In this document: positions 3,571 to 38,560 of the stretch, piece after piece
How the letters are laid out: each line of letters starts with the position of its first letter
Numbering within the stretch: position 1 is the first letter of the stretch
Assembly: GCA_025331435.1 (NCBI GenBank)
Contig: JAIWNI010000023.1
Location: 1-64,000, forward strand
Direction: 5' to 3'
Source of the DNA: Choanephora cucurbitarum
Lineage: Eukaryota; Mucoromycota; Mucoromycetes; Mucorales; Choanephoraceae
Length of the DNA: 64,000 bases
Notes under the pieces: model-generated
What the model was told of the DNA's origin: nothing
Database searches by the model: none
What the model saw: the letters and a program-made list of their open reading frames with translations, nothing else
Position numbers and translations under genes: made by a program

Positions 3571-3971
3571 TTGACCCAAAAATTTGACGAGTTGAACATG
3601 GATGATGCAGCCCATAAGATGTCAATTTCAGCCTTTGTTCTAAACGATTTACTAATACTGTGCATTTACCGCTCGCCTAGATTACGCTAAATAAAAGCAT
3701 TAGATGAAATTGAAAAGCTTCTAAACATTGGCTTAAACCGCAAGATTATTGCTGGAGATTTTGACTCTCATTTTGATGAACAAAATCCTCACATCCATTT
3801 TATTAAGTCGTTGTGGGCTAATACATGGTTTGAAAATTTTTGAATAGCAGGACAGAAAATTAGTCATTTGCTTGCAACATATTCATTGATATATCTAGTA
3901 ATGCTAATGGTAGATATATCTCATTTAATAGCTATCATGATCCTTTGTTCATGCAGTTTGATATTTTATGA
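3571..3971 (+). pseudogene. Decayed endonuclease/exonuclease/phosphatase (LINE-type) fragment
   Basis: Frame 3571-3843 reads through ILCIYRSPRLR, one in-frame TAA at 3688, then ALDEIEKLLNIGLNRKIIAGDFDSHFDEQNPH up to a TGA at 3841. After a frame change, about 3855-3971 reads ACNIFIDISSNANGRYISFNSYHDPLFMQFD with one further stop. A hydrophobic strand followed by GDF(N/D)SH, and a later S-x-H-x-P, are hallmarks of the EEP nuclease domain of non-LTR retrotransposons. No start, reverse transcriptase or poly(A) tail is visible, so this is a relic rather than an element. It sits between ERV1 and the Crypton, at the edge of the island of mobile DNA. Confidence 0.6.
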
Positions 3972-4088
3972 TTATCTATGTCGGCTATAGCTGAGTCGCC
4001 GACTTGGGTCGCCAGCCTTAAGCGGACTTAAAACAAATAATCCATTAAGCGGAGTTACTACACTATTGATTAATTGCTCAATAAAATA

Positions 4089-4303
4089 ACATCAATGCAC
4101 CTGAAATGAAAGGGTGACATTAATGCAGAGAGGTAGTACATAGTCCATTGTTCAATGGATCAACATCAATGTATTTGAAATGGCGAGATGACATTAATGC
4201 AATAAAAGATACACGGGTCGCTTTTTAATAAAACATCATTAGTTTATTTGAAATGATGAGGTGACATTAATGCATTAGAAATAATGAGATGACATTAATA
4301 CAA
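4089..4303 (+). repeat. Degenerate tandem repeat upstream of the Crypton gene
   Basis: Four related copies lie at 4089-4127, 4163-4201, 4233-4274 and 4275-4303. Each has the form ACATCAAT...TGAAATG...GTGACATTAATGCA; the last is truncated at its left end. Between them a second short motif (AGTACA..GATCCATTG) also recurs, so the full unit is about 70-75 bp. The array ends about 115 bp before the recombinase start codon. Confidence 0.7.
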
Positions 4304-4417
4304 ACGAGAAGTACACGATCCATTGAGCGGTTCAAAAAGTATATAAAGTCTTAAGGTTTTGATCAGGAGCTGTCAAATATCATACTTTAACAGCACTTCT
4401 TATTACCAATTGACAAA

Positions 4418-7157
4418 ATGACCAGACCTAGCAGTACTGTATTCTCTTTCTATTCTTTGATCGAATCATTTAAGGGCTGACATGTAAACTATTTAACGAA
4501 ACTTAGACAACAGAAACCAAATCAGACAACCCTATGCCTCTAGCAGTACTTTTCGTGACGATCAACAGCACTTTGCTCCTTTGCCAACTGTCCAAACTGA
4601 TTATGCTCAAGCTATGAATCAGCATTATGCATATGCTCAAGGTGTTGAAGCTGCTGCACAAGACACTGCCGAAAAAGCCAGAAACAACAGACCCAAGAAT
4701 ACCATCAAGTCTTATGAGTCAAAGAAAAAGAAATTTTTGAGATGGTGTCATACCCACTGTCCCCCTGGTCCCTTGAATGAAATCGTCGATGACCGAAAGT
4801 TGCATTTCTTTTTGTTGACTCAGGTACTTCATATATACAATAAGCTTCACTCAATTAGTTTCTCGCTCGGCTTAAATATAGGTTGTCAATCGAGAATACA
4901 AAAAGTAAGTAAGATTACAGCTTATACTCACCAAACATCCTAATGTGTCTCTCTAAAATAGGAAGGGAACAAAGAGAAGTAGATCTTTGGAAAGCTCTGA
5001 AGAAGCTCCTGCTGTTTCTCAAGATACAACCACCTTGTTACCCTCTGACTCTGATCTTGTTCATTCGGAAGAGATTGCAACTACAGCCTTTGAAAACGAT
5101 GAATTAGCTCTTGAAATGCAAAGCCGTGTAGTCATAGGTGCCCCTAATAGACGTGTCGGTCTTGCTACAGTCAAGATGTACATTGCTGCCGTAGTTGGCT
5201 TGTACAACGAACAAGCACTTGCCGACCCACATAGTCATCGCCCTCATCCTCGTGGTAAGCTTGTAGAAGCGCTTTTGCGTCTTCTTGAATGCGAACAGCA
5301 AAAGCATCGTCGGGAAAACTATGTCGACCGTGGTGTTGGTACCGTTGCTGATGGTTATTCTACCACTGCTGAAATGGAAAAGCTCGTGCAATACTATTTT
5401 GAGAAGAACACTCAAGAGGATCTTCGTAACGGCGTTACTTTTCTTTTGCAGCATTATGGCTTGCTTCGTGGCGAAAGTCTTCGTATGATGGAGTTTCCTG
5501 ATCTTCAATCCATGTTACTTGAAAATGAAGGCATCACACCTTGTTATGCTTTGGTTATGGTCTTAAAGCAAGGAAAAACCAACCAAGAAGGCCGTTTGGA
5601 ACTCGCTGCTTGTCTTCGCAACAAGAATGTTCGCATCTGTGCCCAAATGATGCTTTCATTCTACCTTTTCTCCAGATGGCATGTTCATGCTGAACCCTTT
5701 CCAGAGTTCAATGAAAACAGAGACTGGTTTGACATCAAGTTGACAAGATCAAGACATAGTTCTAAAAAAGCCATTTCTTACGATCACCACTTGCGCTCTA
5801 TCAAGGATGCTTTCAAGGCTGTGGGTCTCCATAGTAAAGCAAAGACTCATGCAATGAGAGGGTCTGGCTCACGAATGGCGGAAATGCTTGGAACCAGTGA
5901 AGCGGCTATCCGTTGTTTAGGTCGTTGGAACAACTCTGCTTTGACAAACAATTATCTGACCCACTTGCCAAGAGAGGCTCTCAGAACTCTGGCTGGCTTC
6001 ACCTCTGAGGCAGGACAATTCTATTTGGTTCGTGCTACCATCGCTCCCTCTGAAGACTTGTGCAAGAAGGTGTACCCGTATGTCGATGGCTGGCTTGATA
6101 GATTAGCAAAGGGTGAGGTGGCCGAATCATCAAATGCTGCTGATGGCTTCCTGCAGCTTCTCATGCAATTGCGCATAGTCTTTCTTCTAGACTCTGTAGT
6201 GATGAAAAAGGTGTTTCCTAATCACTTTCTTTGGAATGATCCTCTTTTTCAAGACGAATTGTATTTACAGTTTGAAAGGTAAATAATTTCACCTTAGTTT
6301 CTTTGCTTGATATATTAATCTTTTCTTACTTTAGTCAATTGAACGCTGCATTGGAAACGACCGAAGAGCCTGCAGATCTTTTATTAAGACGAGCAATGCC
6401 TCAGGTGGAAACTCATCTTCAAGATTTGAAAAACCAAACCTCTGTCTTGGCATTACAAGTACAATCACTCACAACATTAGTACAAGGCTTCCAAGCATTT
6501 CCCGCAGCAGTATTCCAACAGCTTGAGCTCTTCCTGCAAGTAAACACTCAAGCTCATTCAATGATGCAACAGTGGAACAGAATTGTCAGTGAAGGTGTCA
6601 CCCTCAATGTTCGCTTAAATATGCAAGAGCCTTCTCAAGAAGCAGAACTGTCCGCCACATCACTTTCTTCAAACATCACAATACCATCTGTTACCTCCGA
6701 TCCCCCCGTCCTTCAAACCGAGTCCTCCCCCTCAACTCCTATATCAAGCTCTGTACCCATTACGGCTCCTCAACCAACACAAACTGCTCCAGCCTCTCAT
6801 TCAGTACAAACTGCTCCTGTCCCCTCCAGCTCTTTAGAGCTCAACATCAAAACATTTAGAAATGTCAAAACTTTGTCTGCTCTTTGGCGTCTCTGGTTTG
6901 ACGGCCTTCCAGGTCATCACCCTATCTGCAAGCTTGACGAAGTATATGGCGTAAAAAGTTGGAGAGGAACAGCCAGCGATTCAAAGTTCTACCAACGTAG
7001 ACATAACATCATTACAAGAATTGAACGCTTTATGCAATCAACCAATTATACTAAAGACCAAGCCTTACAGATTTTAGATCAAAAGAGAACTCGCAGCAAT
7101 GGTACCTCCTTGTCCCTCCACTATATATCTGAACATCTTGATGAATTCTCCGCCTAG
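4418..7157 (+). CDS. Crypton tyrosine recombinase with GCR1_C-like C-terminal domain
   Basis: Five exons, join(4418..4433,4507..4823,4882..4904,4962..6278,6335..7157), give 831 aa without any stop. The N-terminal third has a basic helix segment (NTIKSYESKKKKFLRWCH) like the core-binding domain of phage-integrase-type recombinases. The catalytic set is complete: Arg288 in LLRGESL, Lys321/Lys324 in LKQGKTN, His415-x-x-Arg418 in HAMRGSG, Trp441 in LGRWNN and the nucleophile Tyr450 in TNNYL. Residues about 560-620 form a heptad-rich segment (likely coiled coil), 650-720 is a Ser/Pro/Thr-rich linker, and 725-810 matches the GCR1_C type of DNA-binding domain (LSALWRLWFDGLPGHHPICKLDE), commonly fused to fungal Cryptons. 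Exon 1 is only 16 nt; the reading frame supports it, but its start is the least secure part of the model. Confidence 0.88.
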
Positions 7158-9391
7158 CAGAACTGGTCTTAAACGTGGCTATCTAGGCAAAAAACCATAA
7201 ACTTATGTTTATCAAAAAAGCTCAACGACATTTATCTTTTATTACTAAAAGCACTTGAATAAAGTTTTATACTTCCAACGTATTCCAAATTTGATATGAT
7301 TGCATATATGATATCTTCTTACTTATTTCTTAAACTGAGAAAAGGATCAATATACTGCAAGATTACTTTCAAATCAGTTAGACAAAGGCCAACTGTGTCA
7401 TTCTAGTTAAAGCTGTATCCCCAAAAACAGTAAGTAATATCGAAATAGTAAAGCGAGGTACCAATCCGGGCATTATGTGTCAAATATACATCTTTGATCT
7501 GCATTAATAACACCGGTGATACAGAGAGTTATTTATTCATATGTAGACGACTTGAATAGCAAATAACTGAATTTATTTGGTAAAGTGGTCACAAATAACT
7601 GCAGTTATAAGTCGAGTCTGAAATAAGTAGATTCTGAAATAGGTAGATTCGCACAAAAGGTCGATTTAAGCCAAATGTATCTCGATTTCGTTTAGAGAAT
7701 AAAATGATTGTTTGTCGTAGGCCTGTAATCTGCAGAAAAAAAGTATAGATTAAATATAGAATACAGACTGTAATCTGCATTTAAAGACTACAGATTTAAT
7801 GCATAGAGATACATGTCGAAAATTATGTCTTAAATCTAAATTTTTTTATGCAGAGGAAAATCTGTGGATTTTATAAGGAATTCAGGCATTAATCTATATT
7901 GCAGATTTAATCTAAAATTATGTCAGAAATCCAAAGTTTGGATTTAATACGGATTTAGGCTAAAATCCATATAAAATCTATACTTTTTTTTTTGCAGTGT
8001 CACTTTTTGACGATATTTTGATGCGTTTTAATTAATAGTTTTGATTATAGAACAAACATATATCCTGTTGTCATACTAAAAACAAAGTTTGATAACAATA
8101 AATAAGCTTAAATAAGCTTTCATTGTTAACATTACTGAATGGCCTTTTTCACATGCAAAAGGAACATAAAATTGTCTTTTAGCTCAAACTTTATTTGTAT
8201 CATGACAATCAGATTATTTTCCTGAATCCAGGATTTACTTGTCTCGCTTATCTTCATCATATACCTTGTTGATGAAGATGATAGAGTTTTAGACTGAATC
8301 AAAGTTCGTCTTTTGCTGATTCATGAAACTCTATTTCAAGCCAGATGGATAGTATTTGAATGGTAGCACAAGTTTATGCGTTTCATCCAACAATAATTTT
8401 TTCATTCACCAGTTGATTTAGAGCTGATCATCAAAAATAAAGCAATGCATGTGCTTGTCATTGTTCTCTCATAATTGGGCAGCTCTATACTAATTAGAAT
8501 CGCATTTGAGACAGTTATACTTTTCATGTTAATCATCAGTATAGGTAGTCTTTTCTCAAAAATTAAATATAGCAAGAAATATAAGGGCTTTGTCAAACTA
8601 AGCTTGATGGAATTGTTAAGTATCAGCAAATGAGATGGGAAAAAATGGCTGATAGACTATACGATCTGCATGTGTAACACACATCTAACATAAGAGTTTT
8701 TTCAATACATGGCCTAATTTAGATGGCTTTTTTGATTAAACCAAGGTGGAATATTGCATTACTTTTCTTGTAGTCTCTTCTATAGCAATCAGTCATCTCA
8801 CAGATAGCCAAGAAATAAAAAGGGAGTAAAGGATAGTGTCGTATAACTACACATTCCCCATTATGAAAATGTCAACAAAAGATATGGGTCTAAAAGTACT
8901 CTATGCATTACATTATTCGCTACCCCTTTTTGTTTCCTGGCTAGATGCAAAATGACTGGTAACTGCGAAAGAGCCTAAACAAAAAGAGAGATGCAATACT
9001 CTACTTTGCTTCAACCAGGAAGCCATCCTGCTTCAATCGAGACAGATGTCTTGCTTGTGATAAATCGGAAAGAGAATATTTAAGGAACTGCTTCGCGTTC
9101 TCTGTCTACATTACTTACAACACACAGAGTGTTTGAAACATCAACAAAAAACAAAGTTGGCAGGTCATAACAGCTATATGTGTAGCACAAACATCAGACT
9201 TGACAAGGCCTCTAGATATTTATGTGGAAGTCTATACTTTCCTTCACATTGCCCAAAGTGAACATCATTCTTTTGTGCTCTCGGAGCTCTTTCCGTGTCT
9301 TTTGTTCATGTAATATGAATTTGCCTTGCTGCTGTGTAACAATAGTCGTTTCTGAGTATGGTTTAACATACAATTGATTGGGTTTCTTTAC
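7158..9391. other. Intergenic, A+T-rich, no gene seen apart from a foldback element
   Basis: No open frame of convincing length or composition is present. The only structure recognised is the foldback element at 7731-7996, plus a short hairpin (ATCTTCATCA with its complement) near 8250-8280. Confidence 0.6.
7731..7996. mobile_element. Small inverted-repeat (MITE-like) element
   Basis: The left edge TGCAGAAAAAAAGTATAGAT (from 7731) is answered by an inverted copy, ATCTATACTTTTTTTTTTGCA, ending near 7996. The interior is a mosaic of repeats of the type CAGATTTAAT/ATTAATCTG, in both orientations, with no coding capacity. This is typical of a short non-autonomous foldback element. No clear target-site duplication was found, so the class is not assigned. 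Confidence 0.5.
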
Positions 9392-9455
9392 CTTTACTTC
9401 GCTTTTACTTTACTTCGCTTTTACTTTACTTCGCTTTTACTTTACTTCGCTTTAC
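9392..9455 (+). repeat. 16-bp tandem repeat in the leader of the next gene
   Basis: Four head-to-tail copies of CTTTACTTCGCTTTTA run from 9392 to 9455 (the last one degenerate) and stop 12 bp before the ATG at 9468. They probably lie in the promoter or 5' leader and give the coding strand an almost purine-free stretch. Confidence 0.85.
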
Positions 9456-9467
9456 TCTGCCTCTATT

Positions 9468-11310
9468 ATGAATTCCAACGAAAAAATTAACTCGCTTTTA
9501 AAAGCTTACTTTACTTCTTGCATATCCAATGATATTGAACCTATCTTTGAAAACTTTATCAAAACTCATTCTGCATCGCTCAGAGATGCAATTGATTTGC
9601 AAGACCCCAAGGCCTTTGAAAACTGCTTCATTGCCTTCAAGAGACAAGCAGTAAAACAAGGGCTAAAAAATGTAACTAAAGCTGATGTTAAGTTGATTGT
9701 TCATATACTCACTCAATGTTATATGTAGGTCAAGAAGGGGCATGCAGCAAAAGCTTGGGGTGTTTTTGTAAGCTTCTAACGTTCTAGTGCGTATTCCTGC
9801 CCTAACCTTCATTCATATAGGTTGTCCTGAAGCAGTGCAACAGCGTAAAAAGAAAGCACGTAGATACGAATCTGATTGAAGAGTAAGTTCAAACCGTATA
9901 CTTGTATTGAAAAAGAAGCAAGTAACCAAGCTTTGGCATGTAGGCTAGATAACTTTGCCCTCCCTCAACAACACGGTGAAGATTTTATCTTCAAGCAATA
10001 CAATATCAGCAAGGCTATCGCCAGATACGCCAATGATTCTTTGAATGATTTGAAATCCACCACCAATGAAGTCAAAAAGTTTCGCGAAGACATGAACCGA
10101 TGGCTGTAAGTCACAACTGATAGCCTCTTTTATTAGTTTTACTTATGTATATCTTTTCTAGCGCCATTCACAACATTGTGAAACTGAACAGACAATTGGA
10201 CACTGAATTGGCCACAGTGTTCAATGCAGGCATCATGCAAGATCTTTGCCGTCACTTTAGGGTAGAAGTATTTGGTAAACCTGCCCGCCTCACCACCAGC
10301 CTCAAAGTTGAAGTTTTGGATCTCCTTGCTGTATGACATTGTATAACCATTTTAAACCTCTAAGCAGTCTCTAACTGATGTTTGAATAGGACTTTGACGA
10401 GACAAGAGACACAAAGGCTCTGAAGAGAGAGCTTAACCGCCTGTCTGAGAAAGAAAATGGTGCTGTGTTTCGCACACTTGAAAGTTTGGTAAATTTGTAA
10501 GTATATTTTTTACATTGCAGCATCAAAAAGCAAAGTTCCAATTTCTTTGAAATAGACTAAACAAAATGACCAAGCTGATGCCCGAAATGGGTGAAAAAAA
10601 GGTTGAAAGTATCCTTGAGGCTGTTTGGAGATCACTGTTCAAAGTAACAGACGATCATGACCCATATGGGTAAGACGCTGAAGTTTGAAAAAAGATACGC
10701 TCACTCATCACCTTTTTTTTTTAAGTTATGACAATGTGCTTTTTCCTGCCCCTCATCCTCTCAGCAAATGCCGGCCAGATTTTGTTGTTGAAGTTCGCCT
10801 TGATGGATCTTTCATCAATTTGACTGGCGAAATCAAGCCATACCCTTGCTCCTCTTCCAAACTTGCACTCGATGCATATCGTCTCGGTGTCTTCTCTCTT
10901 TCCTTGCTGGAAAAATACGGCCTGAGTAATGTCATGGCTTTCCAAGCCAAAGGTAAATACAAGAGCCAATTTAACTTTTCAACTATACTGACCAACAGGA
11001 AAAAAAAGGTTTAGAAGTAACCTTCTACCTTTTCTTCAACTACCATGGTCATTATTTCATGACAGAAATAGAGACAATCTGCTTTCCTGCCACTTATGAT
11101 GAATTTTGTAAGTTTGGCTCTTGTTTGGACGAGTTGCTGAACGTTGCAACTGTGTATGACAAGTATTGTCATCAACAACAACAGCAACAACAACAGCAAC
11201 AAGTTGCCGTATTTTCGTATGAAGTCATGAACAAGATGTACGAGCTTTCAACAAGCAAGCGTACAAACACAATTGCTGAAGAGCCGTCTTCAACAGACGC
11301 TCTAAATTAA
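9468..11310 (+). CDS. Uncharacterised protein with PD-(D/E)XK nuclease-like motif
   Basis: Nine exons, join(9468..9671,9729..9767,9821..9882,9944..10105,10162..10330,10390..10496,10556..10669,10726..10952,11015..11310), give 459 aa. All eight introns are GT-AG and 46-60 bp, and all joins stay in frame, so the gene appears intact. Residues 1-255 are mostly helical, charged and unrecognised. The region encoded by exon 8 contains RPDFVVEVRLDGSFINLTGEIKP: an Asp after Pro, a spacer of about 16 residues and then E-I-K. This is the sequence pattern of the PD-(D/E)XK nuclease core, followed by a helix (SSSKLALDAYRLGVFSLSLLEKYG) like the helix that follows the core in that fold. Near the end is a run of ten glutamines. 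No signal peptide or membrane segment is seen. It sits in the transposon-rich island downstream of the Crypton; it could be a lineage-specific host gene, a domesticated element gene or part of a mobile element. The nuclease assignment is inference from motif only. Confidence 0.75.
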
Positions 11311-12470
11311 ATGAAATGAAAGCAAAGCTGGTCTTTGCTCTTTTTTCTTGCTTCTCTTAACTATTAAAACTGTCTTTTGTACTTTGAGCATTAAAAACAT
11401 TTACATACGCTATTAGCACTGAGCAACAGCTTTTTCACTCTTAGTAAAGTCAATGATTATTGGCTAGCGAAGTTTGAAAATATATTATACAATGGTTGAA
11501 TTTTTATTGTTAGGATACCCCTCAATCAATTCTTCCCTCTCCATAAGGCCTACCAGCTTAACTTTTGAAAAAAAGACCAACTTTGAAAGCCTTTACACAA
11601 AAAAAGTTTTTACGATAAAAATGATCTTTCACGATAACATTGTTTAGAAAGGTTACAAAGACATTTTCATTGTGATAGATTCTTTATCTCATAAGTGTAT
11701 GAAGGATTTCAAAAAAGGGCTATATTTTTGGCGTTTTAAGCTCAGAGGCACTTTATGAGATTTTGTTTATCAAAAGCAGAAGAATGAGTCAATGATCTTG
11801 GAGATAAGATGTCTGTTTAATTGCAAGGAAGTTTCTTTGGCAGAACTTTTTTCTTTTTTTTTTATTGGTGCTTGAGGATTTGAATTCTGTTAGATAAAAA
11901 AAGTAGAAAAAAAATAACAACAAAGTCAGAATAATAAAACCTTAGCAAGTATGTGTAATATCTATTTGCCTACACTTCTGCAAAGTTTGCAATTATCATA
12001 GAATGACGTCTATTTATCTTCTTGATCTGAGAAAGTCCGATGTTAGACCTTTGCCTTTAACACTTTGAATGATTAAGTGCCTTCTTATACGAGCATGCTC
12101 AACACAAACCAAATGATGTTTTACTTTTGAAGAAAGATTCAAGGAGACTCATTTTGCTTGACAGTCTATCACAATTCACTGTTCAATTCTTCATCATAGT
12201 AACTTATTTGAAGTCCTTAAAAAAGATGTGCCTTTTATTTATACAAAATCAATCATAGTAATTTACTTAATGGTTTTATAACAAAATGAGAAACTTTGGT
12301 TTGCATTACCACATATATCCATTAGCTTAATTTAAAAATGAAAAGATGATCTGTGAAGCTTTGTCATAGTGTCTTTTGAGGGCTTCAGCTGCATTGACGA
12401 ATCGTATTCATAATTCAACCACAAATGTACGTGGAAAAAAACACTAGATAAAACAAATGAAGCAAGGGGC
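11311..12470. other. Intergenic, A+T-rich, nothing recognised
   Basis: No convincing open frame, RNA gene or repeat was seen between the PD-(D/E)XK-like gene and the cassette array. Confidence 0.6.
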
Positions 12471-12776
12471 TGTACATAACAGAGCATGCCGTTACAAACT
12501 CGAAGTCCTGGCGGGTGATAATTATGTACAGAGAAACATAATATATGTACATAACAGAGCATGCCGTTACAGGCTCGAAGTCCTGGCGGGTGATAATTAT
12601 GTACATATGAGAAATAAGTGATGGACGCAAGAAAGAGAGAATGTACATAACAGAGCATGCCGTTACAAGCTCGAAGTCCTGGCGGGTGATAATTATGTAC
12701 AGGAAAACATAATATGTGTACATAACAGAGCATGCCGTTACAGGCTCTAAGTCCTGGCGGGTGATAATTATGTAGA
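12471..12776. repeat. Array of four 60-bp cassettes with inverted termini
   Basis: Four near-identical 60-bp units occupy 12471-12530, 12546-12605, 12642-12701 and 12717-12776. Each begins TGTACATAACAGAGCATGCC and ends GGTGATAATTATGTACA, so every unit has its own 9-bp inverted ends (TGTACATAA/TTATGTACA; the last copy ends TGTAGA). The spacers are 15, 36 and 15 bp; the first and third are related (AACATAATAT core), the middle one is not. A fifth, decayed start (GCAGGCCATGCC) follows at about 12790. The core is richer in G+C than its surroundings. The layout resembles repeat-spacer arrays but in a nuclear fungal setting; it is not a CRISPR. Confidence 0.9.
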
Positions 12777-13602
12777 GAGAAACAAGAGATGCACACAGCA
12801 GGCCATGCCACTACAAGTCGTTACATCTTTTTGCGCACTTGTGCATGCCTTAGAAAGAAAGACCTTTTTTTTATTTGATTTTTTTTGCTTGTTGTGAGCT
12901 GAGTGTTCTACGTCAGCTGCGGTAATTGAACTTCTCTTTTGACAAGAGCATATTTCCTTTTTGGTTTGCTCTGCCATTATTTCCTTTCTTGATCTATTCA
13001 CCTTTCTCTCTATTCAATCTTTCCTATTATATATTATCATCCGTATTTTACCAGTATAAATAGCCCTCATAATTATTTTAATAAGCATTATCTTTATCTT
13101 GCTCAATTAATTCTGTCTCTACTTGAGTTTAATTGAAGTAATCTCTTCTATTCTTTTTTATTTCATAATAAATCTAAAGTCCATCAATCCAGCTTATTTT
13201 AAGATATCTGTGATGACTGTTTAGTTGAAAACCTGATGGGATCAAAGAAAGACCACCTCACTGAAAAGTAGCAAGACTGGGCAAGCTGGCGAGCGTACTG
13301 GCGTTTACACTTTGATTACATCCAGGTTATCCCTGAACACATCGTTATTTAGGCTATCGGTCTTATTACAAGAGCTTACATTACCACCTCCTCCATCGAA
13401 ACCATTTTACCTTTACTTCACCGTGCCATGATGAAACCCCCCTCCTTACTTTTAGTTATCTGTCATAATCTCCTTGTTTTCAGTTTTTGTTTTTATTTTT
13501 CCACTTAATCATGCTCTACCTCTCAGCAATGTATGGCTATTTTGTTAATTAAAAAAAAATAAGTTTGACAGTATGTAAATAGTGCAATAAAGCGAAATCG
13601 TC
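12777..13602. other. Intergenic with a possible decayed coding fragment
   Basis: From 13272 the frame reads QDWASWRAYWRLHFDYIQVIPEHIVI, hits a TAG at 13350, then continues AIGLITRAYITTSSIETILPLLHRAMMKP. The amino-acid composition looks protein-like on both sides of the stop, suggesting a relic of a gene or retroelement that I cannot name. A TATAAATA box lies near 13054, and 13000-13200 is pyrimidine-rich. Confidence 0.3.
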
Positions 13603-36956: not shown

Positions 36957-38560
36957 AACCAAGATAGCAAAACGATAAAAAAGAACCAAAGAAAGTCGAA
37001 AGAACCAAAGAAAGTCAAAAAAGTCAAAGAAAGTCGAGGAAGCCAAAGAGAACCAAAGAGAACCAAAAGAGTTGAAGAGAGTCGAAAGAACTAGGAAAAC
37101 CAGAAGAACCAAAAGAGCTAAAGAGAGCCAAAGAAAGTCAAAAGAGTCAAAAGAACCAAAAAAAGTCAAAAGAGCCAGAGAAAGTCAAAAGAGCCAAAAG
37201 AGCCAAAAGAGCCAAAAGAGCCAAAAGAGCCAAAAGAGCCAAAGAAAGTCAAAAGAACCAAAGAGAGTCGAAAGAGTTAAAGTGAAAAGAGCCAAAAGAA
37301 CCAAAGAGAGTCAAAAAAGCCAAAGAGAACCAAGGAAAGTCAAAAGAGCCAAAGAGAACCAAAAGAACCAAAGAAAATCAAAAGAGTCAAAGAAAGTCGA
37401 AAGAGCCAAAGAAAGTCGAAAAAGTCAAGAGAGTCAAAGAAAGTTGAGGGAGCCAAAAAAAAATCAAGAGTCAAAGGAAGTCGAAAGAACCAAAGAGAAC
37501 CAGAAGAGCCAAAGAAAGTCAAAAGAGTCAAAAGAGCCAAAAAAAGTCAAAAGAACCAAAGAGAGTCGAAAGAGTTAAAGTGAAAAGAGCCAAAAGAACC
37601 AAAGAAAGTCGAAAGAGCCAAAAGAACCAAAGAGAACCAAAGAGAACCAAAGAGAACCAAAGAGAACCAAAGAGAACCAAAAGAGTTGGAGAGAGTCAAA
37701 AGAACTAGGAAAACCAGAAGAACCAAAAGAGCTAAAGAGAGCCAAAGAGAACCAAAGAGAACCAAGAGAACCAAGAGAACCAAGAGAATCAAAGAGAATC
37801 AAAGAGAACCAAGAGAACCAAGAGAACCAAGAGAGCCAGCGACACACAACACAACCCAACCCAACACAACCTAACCCAACCCAACCCAACCCAACCCAAC
37901 CCAACCCAACCCAACTCAAACAAGAATCAAGAACCAGAATGAAAGCAAACAGAAAGCAAGAACCAGAACGAAAGCAAAACAAAAGCAAAACAAAAGCAAA
38001 ACAAAGCAGAAAGAGAAAACCTACAAACCTGCAAACCAGGCGGACCAAGAGAACCAAGAGAACCAAGAGAACCAAGAGAACCAAGAGAGCCAAAGAGAGC
38101 CAAAGAGAACCAAAGAGAACCGAGAACCAAGAGAACCAAGAGAACCAAGAGAGCCAAAGAGAACCAAGAGAACCAAGAGAACCAGAAGACCAAGAGAACC
38201 AGAAGACCAAGAGAACCAGAAGACCAGAAGACCAGAAGACCAGAGTAACAGAGGAACAGAAGAGCTAGGGGACCATAGAACCATAGAACCAGAGGAACGG
38301 AGAAACTAGGAGCAGAGAACAAAAAAACCAAAAGAACTAGAGGGCCAGAGGAGCGAAACAACTAGGAGCAGAGAGCTAGACGAACATGAGGAACTGGGAG
38401 CAGAAAAATAAAGGAACAGAAGAACCAAAGAACCAGAGAACCAAAGAATCAAAAAATCAAAGAACTAGAGGACCAGAGGAACAGAAGAATTAGAGAACCA
38501 CAGAACCAGAGAATCAGAGAATCAGAAAACCAGAGAACCAGAGGAGTAGAGAGCCGAAGA
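36957..38560 (+). repeat. 1.6-kb thymine-poor tandem repeat tract
   Basis: The plus strand is built from interleaved 6- to 10-bp units such as AGAACCAA, AGAGCCAA, AAAGTCAA and AAAGTCGA. It is almost free of T for about 1.6 kb. The composition shifts left to right: AAAGTC-rich at 36990-37600, AGAACCAA-rich at 37600-37840 and 38040-38200, then AGACCAGA/AGAACCAG to 38560. All frames are long and open simply because of the composition, reading Lys/Arg/Glu/Ser-rich on plus and Leu/Val/Phe-rich on minus, so these are not genes. The minus strand is correspondingly T/G-rich and adenine-poor. Confidence 0.92.
37850..37914 (+). repeat. (CCCAA)n pentanucleotide block
   Basis: Inside the large tract, about 65 bp consist of CAACC/CCCAA units (about twelve, with two or three interruptions such as ACACAACCTAACCC). 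It lies between two blocks of the purine-rich repeat. It is not the canonical fungal telomere repeat, which would be CCCTAA. Confidence 0.9.

Follow-up and report, generated by a model that had tools for sequence, protein, structure and literature searches.

What does an intact nine-exon gene encode when it lies among mobile elements in the squash-rot fungus Choanephora cucurbitarum and its product matches no known family? The gene is found at positions 9468–11310 of the forward strand of the window, that is, of the 64,000-nucleotide stretch analyzed here, which is the start of contig JAIWNI010000023.1 (C146 in our numbering). Comparison of its copies indicates that the product is probably an active PD-(D/E)XK-type nuclease from a lineage-specific, multicopy family; this family is new and previously unnamed, but of a known nuclease kind. 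The assembly searched for further copies comprises 33.4 Mb in 357 contigs.

The putative catalytic motif and the gene that carries it

An earlier, sequence-only reading had pointed to R-P-D-F and G-E-I-K-P in exon 8, and these motifs do start at residues 302 and 320. The features that make up the putative active site are as follows (rows are those of the alignment described below).

10726–10952, forward strand: exon 8, which holds the catalytic motif
10772–10783, forward strand: first catalytic motif, R302-P-D304-F; D kept in 47 of 48 rows
10826–10840, forward strand: second catalytic motif, G320-E321-I-K323-P; E kept in 46 of 48 rows and K in 47 of 48
10856–10921, forward strand: post-motif helix, residues about 330–351 (329–349 in the model), with conserved D335 (D at 0.94)

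A search of the fetched DNA with a profile of the core gave 64 domain hits and 55 aligned rows, one of which was removed as the second row for one place (L039 and L087 contribute two rows each). All three catalytic columns are spanned by 48 of the remaining 54 rows, and D, E, and K are all kept in 45 of the 48, a count biased upward by the presence of these columns in the search profile itself. The other three are L065, with K for E; L049, with D for E; and L051, with N for both D and K. When rows at least 90% alike are dropped, the three residues, on whose conservation among homologues the sequence-only reading had made its PD-(D/E)XK-like core depend, are retained in 35 of 38 rows with a mean pairwise identity of 33%; in one further non-redundant row the E position is occupied by D, a substitution that the superfamily permits. 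Ranked by conservation, the top six among the 67 columns are P, K, D, E, R, and the helix D (median column 0.39). Because it is conserved family-wide, the motif is more than a chance likeness, and since most of the copies examined keep the active-site residues, the protein is probably a real nuclease.

The intact nine-exon frame proposed earlier stands, but its length does not. The stop-free translation gives 459 amino acids (aa) if the exon 9 acceptor ends at 11014, and 461 aa if the acceptor is moved six bases upstream (exon 9 = 11009–11310). The 461-aa product is identical to the public protein P0001 (EDC96DRAFT_607312, Choanephora cucurbitarum), and is favored because the extra GL is also present in the paralogous protein P0003. 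All eight introns, of 53–61 nucleotides (nt), start with GT and end with AG, and the positions of introns 1–7 are shared with a paralogue on contig C290 (by-eye comparison). The repeated leader and the C-terminal polyQ run of the sequence-only reading were likewise located.

9387–9453, forward strand: leader repeat of a 16-nt unit, 4.1 copies, ending 14 bases 5' of the start codon
9468–9671, forward strand: exon 1, which opens with the start codon and encodes the N-terminal helical module; the module recurs at other places
9729–9767, forward strand: exon 2, from translation of the spliced frame
9821–9882, forward strand: exon 3, from the same translation
9944–10105, forward strand: exon 4, from the same translation
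10162–10330, forward strand: exon 5, from the same translation
10390–10496, forward strand: exon 6, from the same translation
10556–10669, forward strand: exon 7, ending with the helix that precedes the nuclease core (261–275 in the AlphaFold2 model)
10953–11008, forward strand: intron 8, whose in-frame read-through encodes a 20-residue tail
11009–11310, forward strand: exon 9, with the last core strands, the polyQ run, and the stop codon, in the 461-aa model identical to P0001
About 11173–11202, forward strand: polyQ run within exon 9, from a repeat search

The read-through tail of intron 8, GKYKSQFNFSTILTNRKKKV, is identical in the Blakeslea gene model P0002, though the two proteins are 83% identical; a retained intron, constraint, or recent exchange may be the cause. 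Direct repeats of 133 and 75 nt lie just 3' of the gene (window 12471–12849).

Fold and likeness to known families

Examples of the PD-(D/E)XK superfamily are the TnsA N-terminal domain, BsaXI, the Cas4-like ACE1, and cap-snatching endonucleases. The Choanephora protein resembles this superfamily in its R-P-D … E-x-K followed by a helix, in a strand-strand-helix-strand order, and in weak structural matches. It differs from its members in having extra N-terminal and middle helical parts, no significant sequence match in Pfam or PDB, and fold models of low confidence. Both AlphaFold2 models obtained were of this kind; the predicted local distance difference test (pLDDT) score, averaged in blocks of ten, was 72–91 over residues 1–80. 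The better model has a helix, a strand after RPD, a strand with GEIK, a helix, and a strand, while the first core strand is absent, with low pLDDT. The alpha-beta-beta-beta-alpha-beta core expected from the sequence-only reading was recovered in its strand-strand-helix-strand order but not in its first strand, and the low-confidence models lend tentative support to a PD-(D/E)XK fold.

No model in Pfam, NCBIfam, or PADLOC matched the protein, which agrees with the earlier statement that it has no recognizable family; it does, however, belong to a large unnamed family present at 60 or more places in the genome. The best known-family profile match was TnsA-like (E 0.22, short of the cut-off), and profile searches of PDB matched no superfamily member. 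PHROG matches were weak, the best being phrog_20504, of unknown function (E 1.7e-5), to the helical part of P0001; one scan with P0001 for viral relatives, among the families listed by VIA-align, found none. Among the literature matches listed, no description of the family was found in open-licence papers.

The best structural match of a 393-residue relative, P0008, is to mL37/mL65 (residues 59–390; root-mean-square deviation 5.4 over 219 residues), chains that we take to be the animal mitoribosomal proteins of the PDCD9 type. Identity is only 7–11% in the first ten structural match rows, and searches of PDB sequences with a single sequence and two profiles gave no match to these chains. The proteins mL37 and mL65 are described as repurposed (PMC8998825), whereas the Choanephora family keeps its motif and is multicopy. 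One alternative is that the family, like mL37/mL65 in the animal mitoribosome, has a nuclease fold that has lost catalysis and been turned to binding RNA or protein. We consider this unlikely: binding has no need of an active site, yet 35 of the 38 non-redundant copies retain D, E, and K, and a spread over about 60 places in one genome is not what a ribosomal protein shows.

Copies, duplication, and exchange

Among 5.8 billion proteins, at least ten relatives were found (P0001–P0010) by a search that relies on shared 5-residue words, with candidates partly scored in two of three queries. Eight of the ten are assigned to Choanephora or Blakeslea, the genera in which the family has so far been seen. 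In its own genome, the window protein gave 116 exon-level matches (E up to 10). Three divergent members used as queries gave further matches, and two of them recover the window gene (L056, E 4.8e-4; L060, E 1.7e-4). Merging matches whose starts lie within 2.2 kb leaves at least 47 places for the window protein and at least 60 when the three divergent queries are added; these counts are lower bounds and include broken copies.

Two larger features enclose or adjoin the window gene.

8001–12081, forward strand: duplicated segment of 4.08 kb, with a second copy at C295:225691–229754
8048–9195, forward strand: upstream block, a dispersed repeat (tested for 8048–8847); the whole block also precedes the C290 paralogue

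The C295 copy differs from the window by two substitutions (one coding), one missing base, and one 16-nt unit fewer in the leader repeat. The sequence to the left of the gene holds open reading frames (ORFs) for topoisomerase and GRF zinc-ribbon domains and next, at window 4497–7157, ORFs with NDC10_II (E 4.5e-60) and GCR1_C, a pair that is the signature of Crypton elements. Window 3958–5879 is 98.2% identical to sequence beside a paralogue on C41 (L043:3579–5501). With these ORFs and the dispersed repeat from 8048 nearby, the mobile-element setting described earlier is borne out.

Dozens of places in the genome, the recent 4-kb copy on C295, a dispersed repeat directly upstream, and Crypton-type and LINE-type (long interspersed nuclear element) ORFs near family members would all fit a transposon-carried or domesticated transposon protein. 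Such an origin is nevertheless rather improbable, and the domesticated element protein of the sequence-only reading finds no support in the one complete duplicate pair: no terminal inverted repeat was found at its ends, and the flanks of the two copies are unrelated. A transposon with the gene inside was considered when a match on C347 ended with the query; with a longer query the homology ran on to 12197, past the end of the segment, so the right breakpoint does not coincide with a shared terminus. In addition, the 8048–8847 repeat matches, beyond the copy on C295 and the paralogue on C290, about 19 places (grouped by eye), with no family match within about 3 kb of them among the window-protein and divergent-query matches. 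Block 8100–9199 shows 74–89% identity per 100 bases to the stretch before the C290 paralogue; between the genes themselves, the blocks show 43–73%.

Some other copies share a contig with one another. Inverted pairs occur on C313 (L092; identical arms of 625 bases), C46 (L093/L094; identity over at least 1687 bases), and C135 (99.7% identity over at least 2093 bases), and may be real palindromes or assembly effects; C201 also holds family members as an inverted pair. Copies on C39 are spaced 17.4 kb apart, with two 6-kb pieces 99.5–99.8% alike. Between two copies on C290, 45 of 143 sites are different around the exon 1 start (L046:1653–1785 vs. L047:1911–2042), as against 11 of 1258 elsewhere; neither this patch nor a stretch spanning exon 3, each used as a DNA query, led to a closer donor. 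Near-identical copies at separate places, identical inverted arms, and patchy divergence could point to a selfish homing or drive nuclease. We regard this as very unlikely, since homing enters a matching target whereas the two complete copies have unrelated flanks, and no homing family is among the listed Pfam matches.

Eleven of 17 comparisons between copies gave a ratio of non-synonymous to synonymous divergence (dN/dS), of 0.07 to 0.60, values that are rough because copies exchange sequence; of the other six, two had non-synonymous changes only (8 and 3), two were unchanged, and two were saturated. Positive selection on exons was also considered. With gap columns excluded, a fragment at 234 kb of C295 differs at 31 of 363 exon sites and 2 of 171 intron sites (p 0.0004), and one at 240 kb at 21 of 512 exon sites and 4 of 173 in intron 8 and the 3' flank (p 0.35; intron 7, with 5 of 41 differing, excluded). 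The pooled test, with exon 2 (0/39) left out, gave p 0.0065, or 0.012 with intron 7 and the 3' flank. The excess is thus significant in one fragment and not in the other. Because synonymous sites also differ more than introns, exchange between copies or intron constraint is likelier than selection on the protein.

The same genome holds a second form, type B (K-P-D-F … E-V-K-K-P; L041, L095, L096, L098, L099). Its N-terminal module, seen at L041, at C302, and elsewhere, is related, and its core, read by eye, is P-[DN]-F … VK with a helix and strands after it. It differs in an acidic insert and in K-P-D or N-P-D in place of R-P-D; its core profile match is marginal (E 0.006 for L041), the E position is K in L095, and the D position is N in L096. 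Since the module recurs beside other C-termini, modular shuffling of one header among unrelated C-termini was considered; yet type B carries a P-D … E-x-K core of its own, in which helix and strands follow a similar order, so divergence within one large family explains the pattern equally well. At L041 (1748–2107, 546–1655), a LINE-type reverse transcriptase stretch, recognized by eye, adjoins the N-terminal module and the type B KPDF…EVKKP core; an inverted copy, L042, lies 13 kb away and is 99.7% identical. At L100 (C279:20800–23600), the module stands ahead of what seems a third kind of C-terminal sequence, with IPDMSF…CVEIG.

Elsewhere in the window, a long degenerate purine-rich repeat (36979–38545) has 8–10-base units such as CCAAAAGAG, and AT skew reaches 0.84 at 37–38 kb.

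Proposed function

The explanation that we favor, with moderate confidence, is an intracellular, metal-dependent PD-(D/E)XK nuclease from a duplicating family, whose likeliest task would be to cut nucleic acid of foreign or mobile-element origin. Two helical parts, the N-terminal module and the middle of the protein, would come before the C-terminal catalytic domain, with D304 and E321 as predicted metal ligands and K323 as the residue predicted to act on the attacking water. The family would spread by segmental, tandem, and inverted duplication, with patchy divergence between copies. Its active site is kept while the remainder diverges, as would be expected for a gene engaged in genetic conflict.

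Nuclease domains can occur in Crinklers. A secreted effector of the Crinkler type, acting in the host plant, is nonetheless extremely improbable here: the N-terminus, MNSNEKINSLLKAYF, is unlike a signal peptide (judged by eye only), and no Crinkler model is among the listed Pfam matches of P0001, the presence of the Crinkler header in that Pfam copy being unchecked. In favor of an effector, Choanephora is a plant pathogen (PMC5238444).

Taken further, the intracellular nuclease reading admits a more daring version, which we hold to be highly doubtful: the family would be made up of relatives, still catalytically intact, of the nuclease that was repurposed to give mL37/mL65, kept as a multicopy conflict nuclease in an early-diverging fungus with exons diversified by patchwise exchange among copies. 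If upheld in better models, the mL37/mL65 likeness would be a lead on the origin of that pair, and it is the boldest lead offered here. More generally, early-diverging fungi commonly have large gene families that lack a name. For the present family, a likely catalytic mechanism can be named whose residues are open to mutation, and the function, substrate, and possible role in conflict are therefore directly testable.
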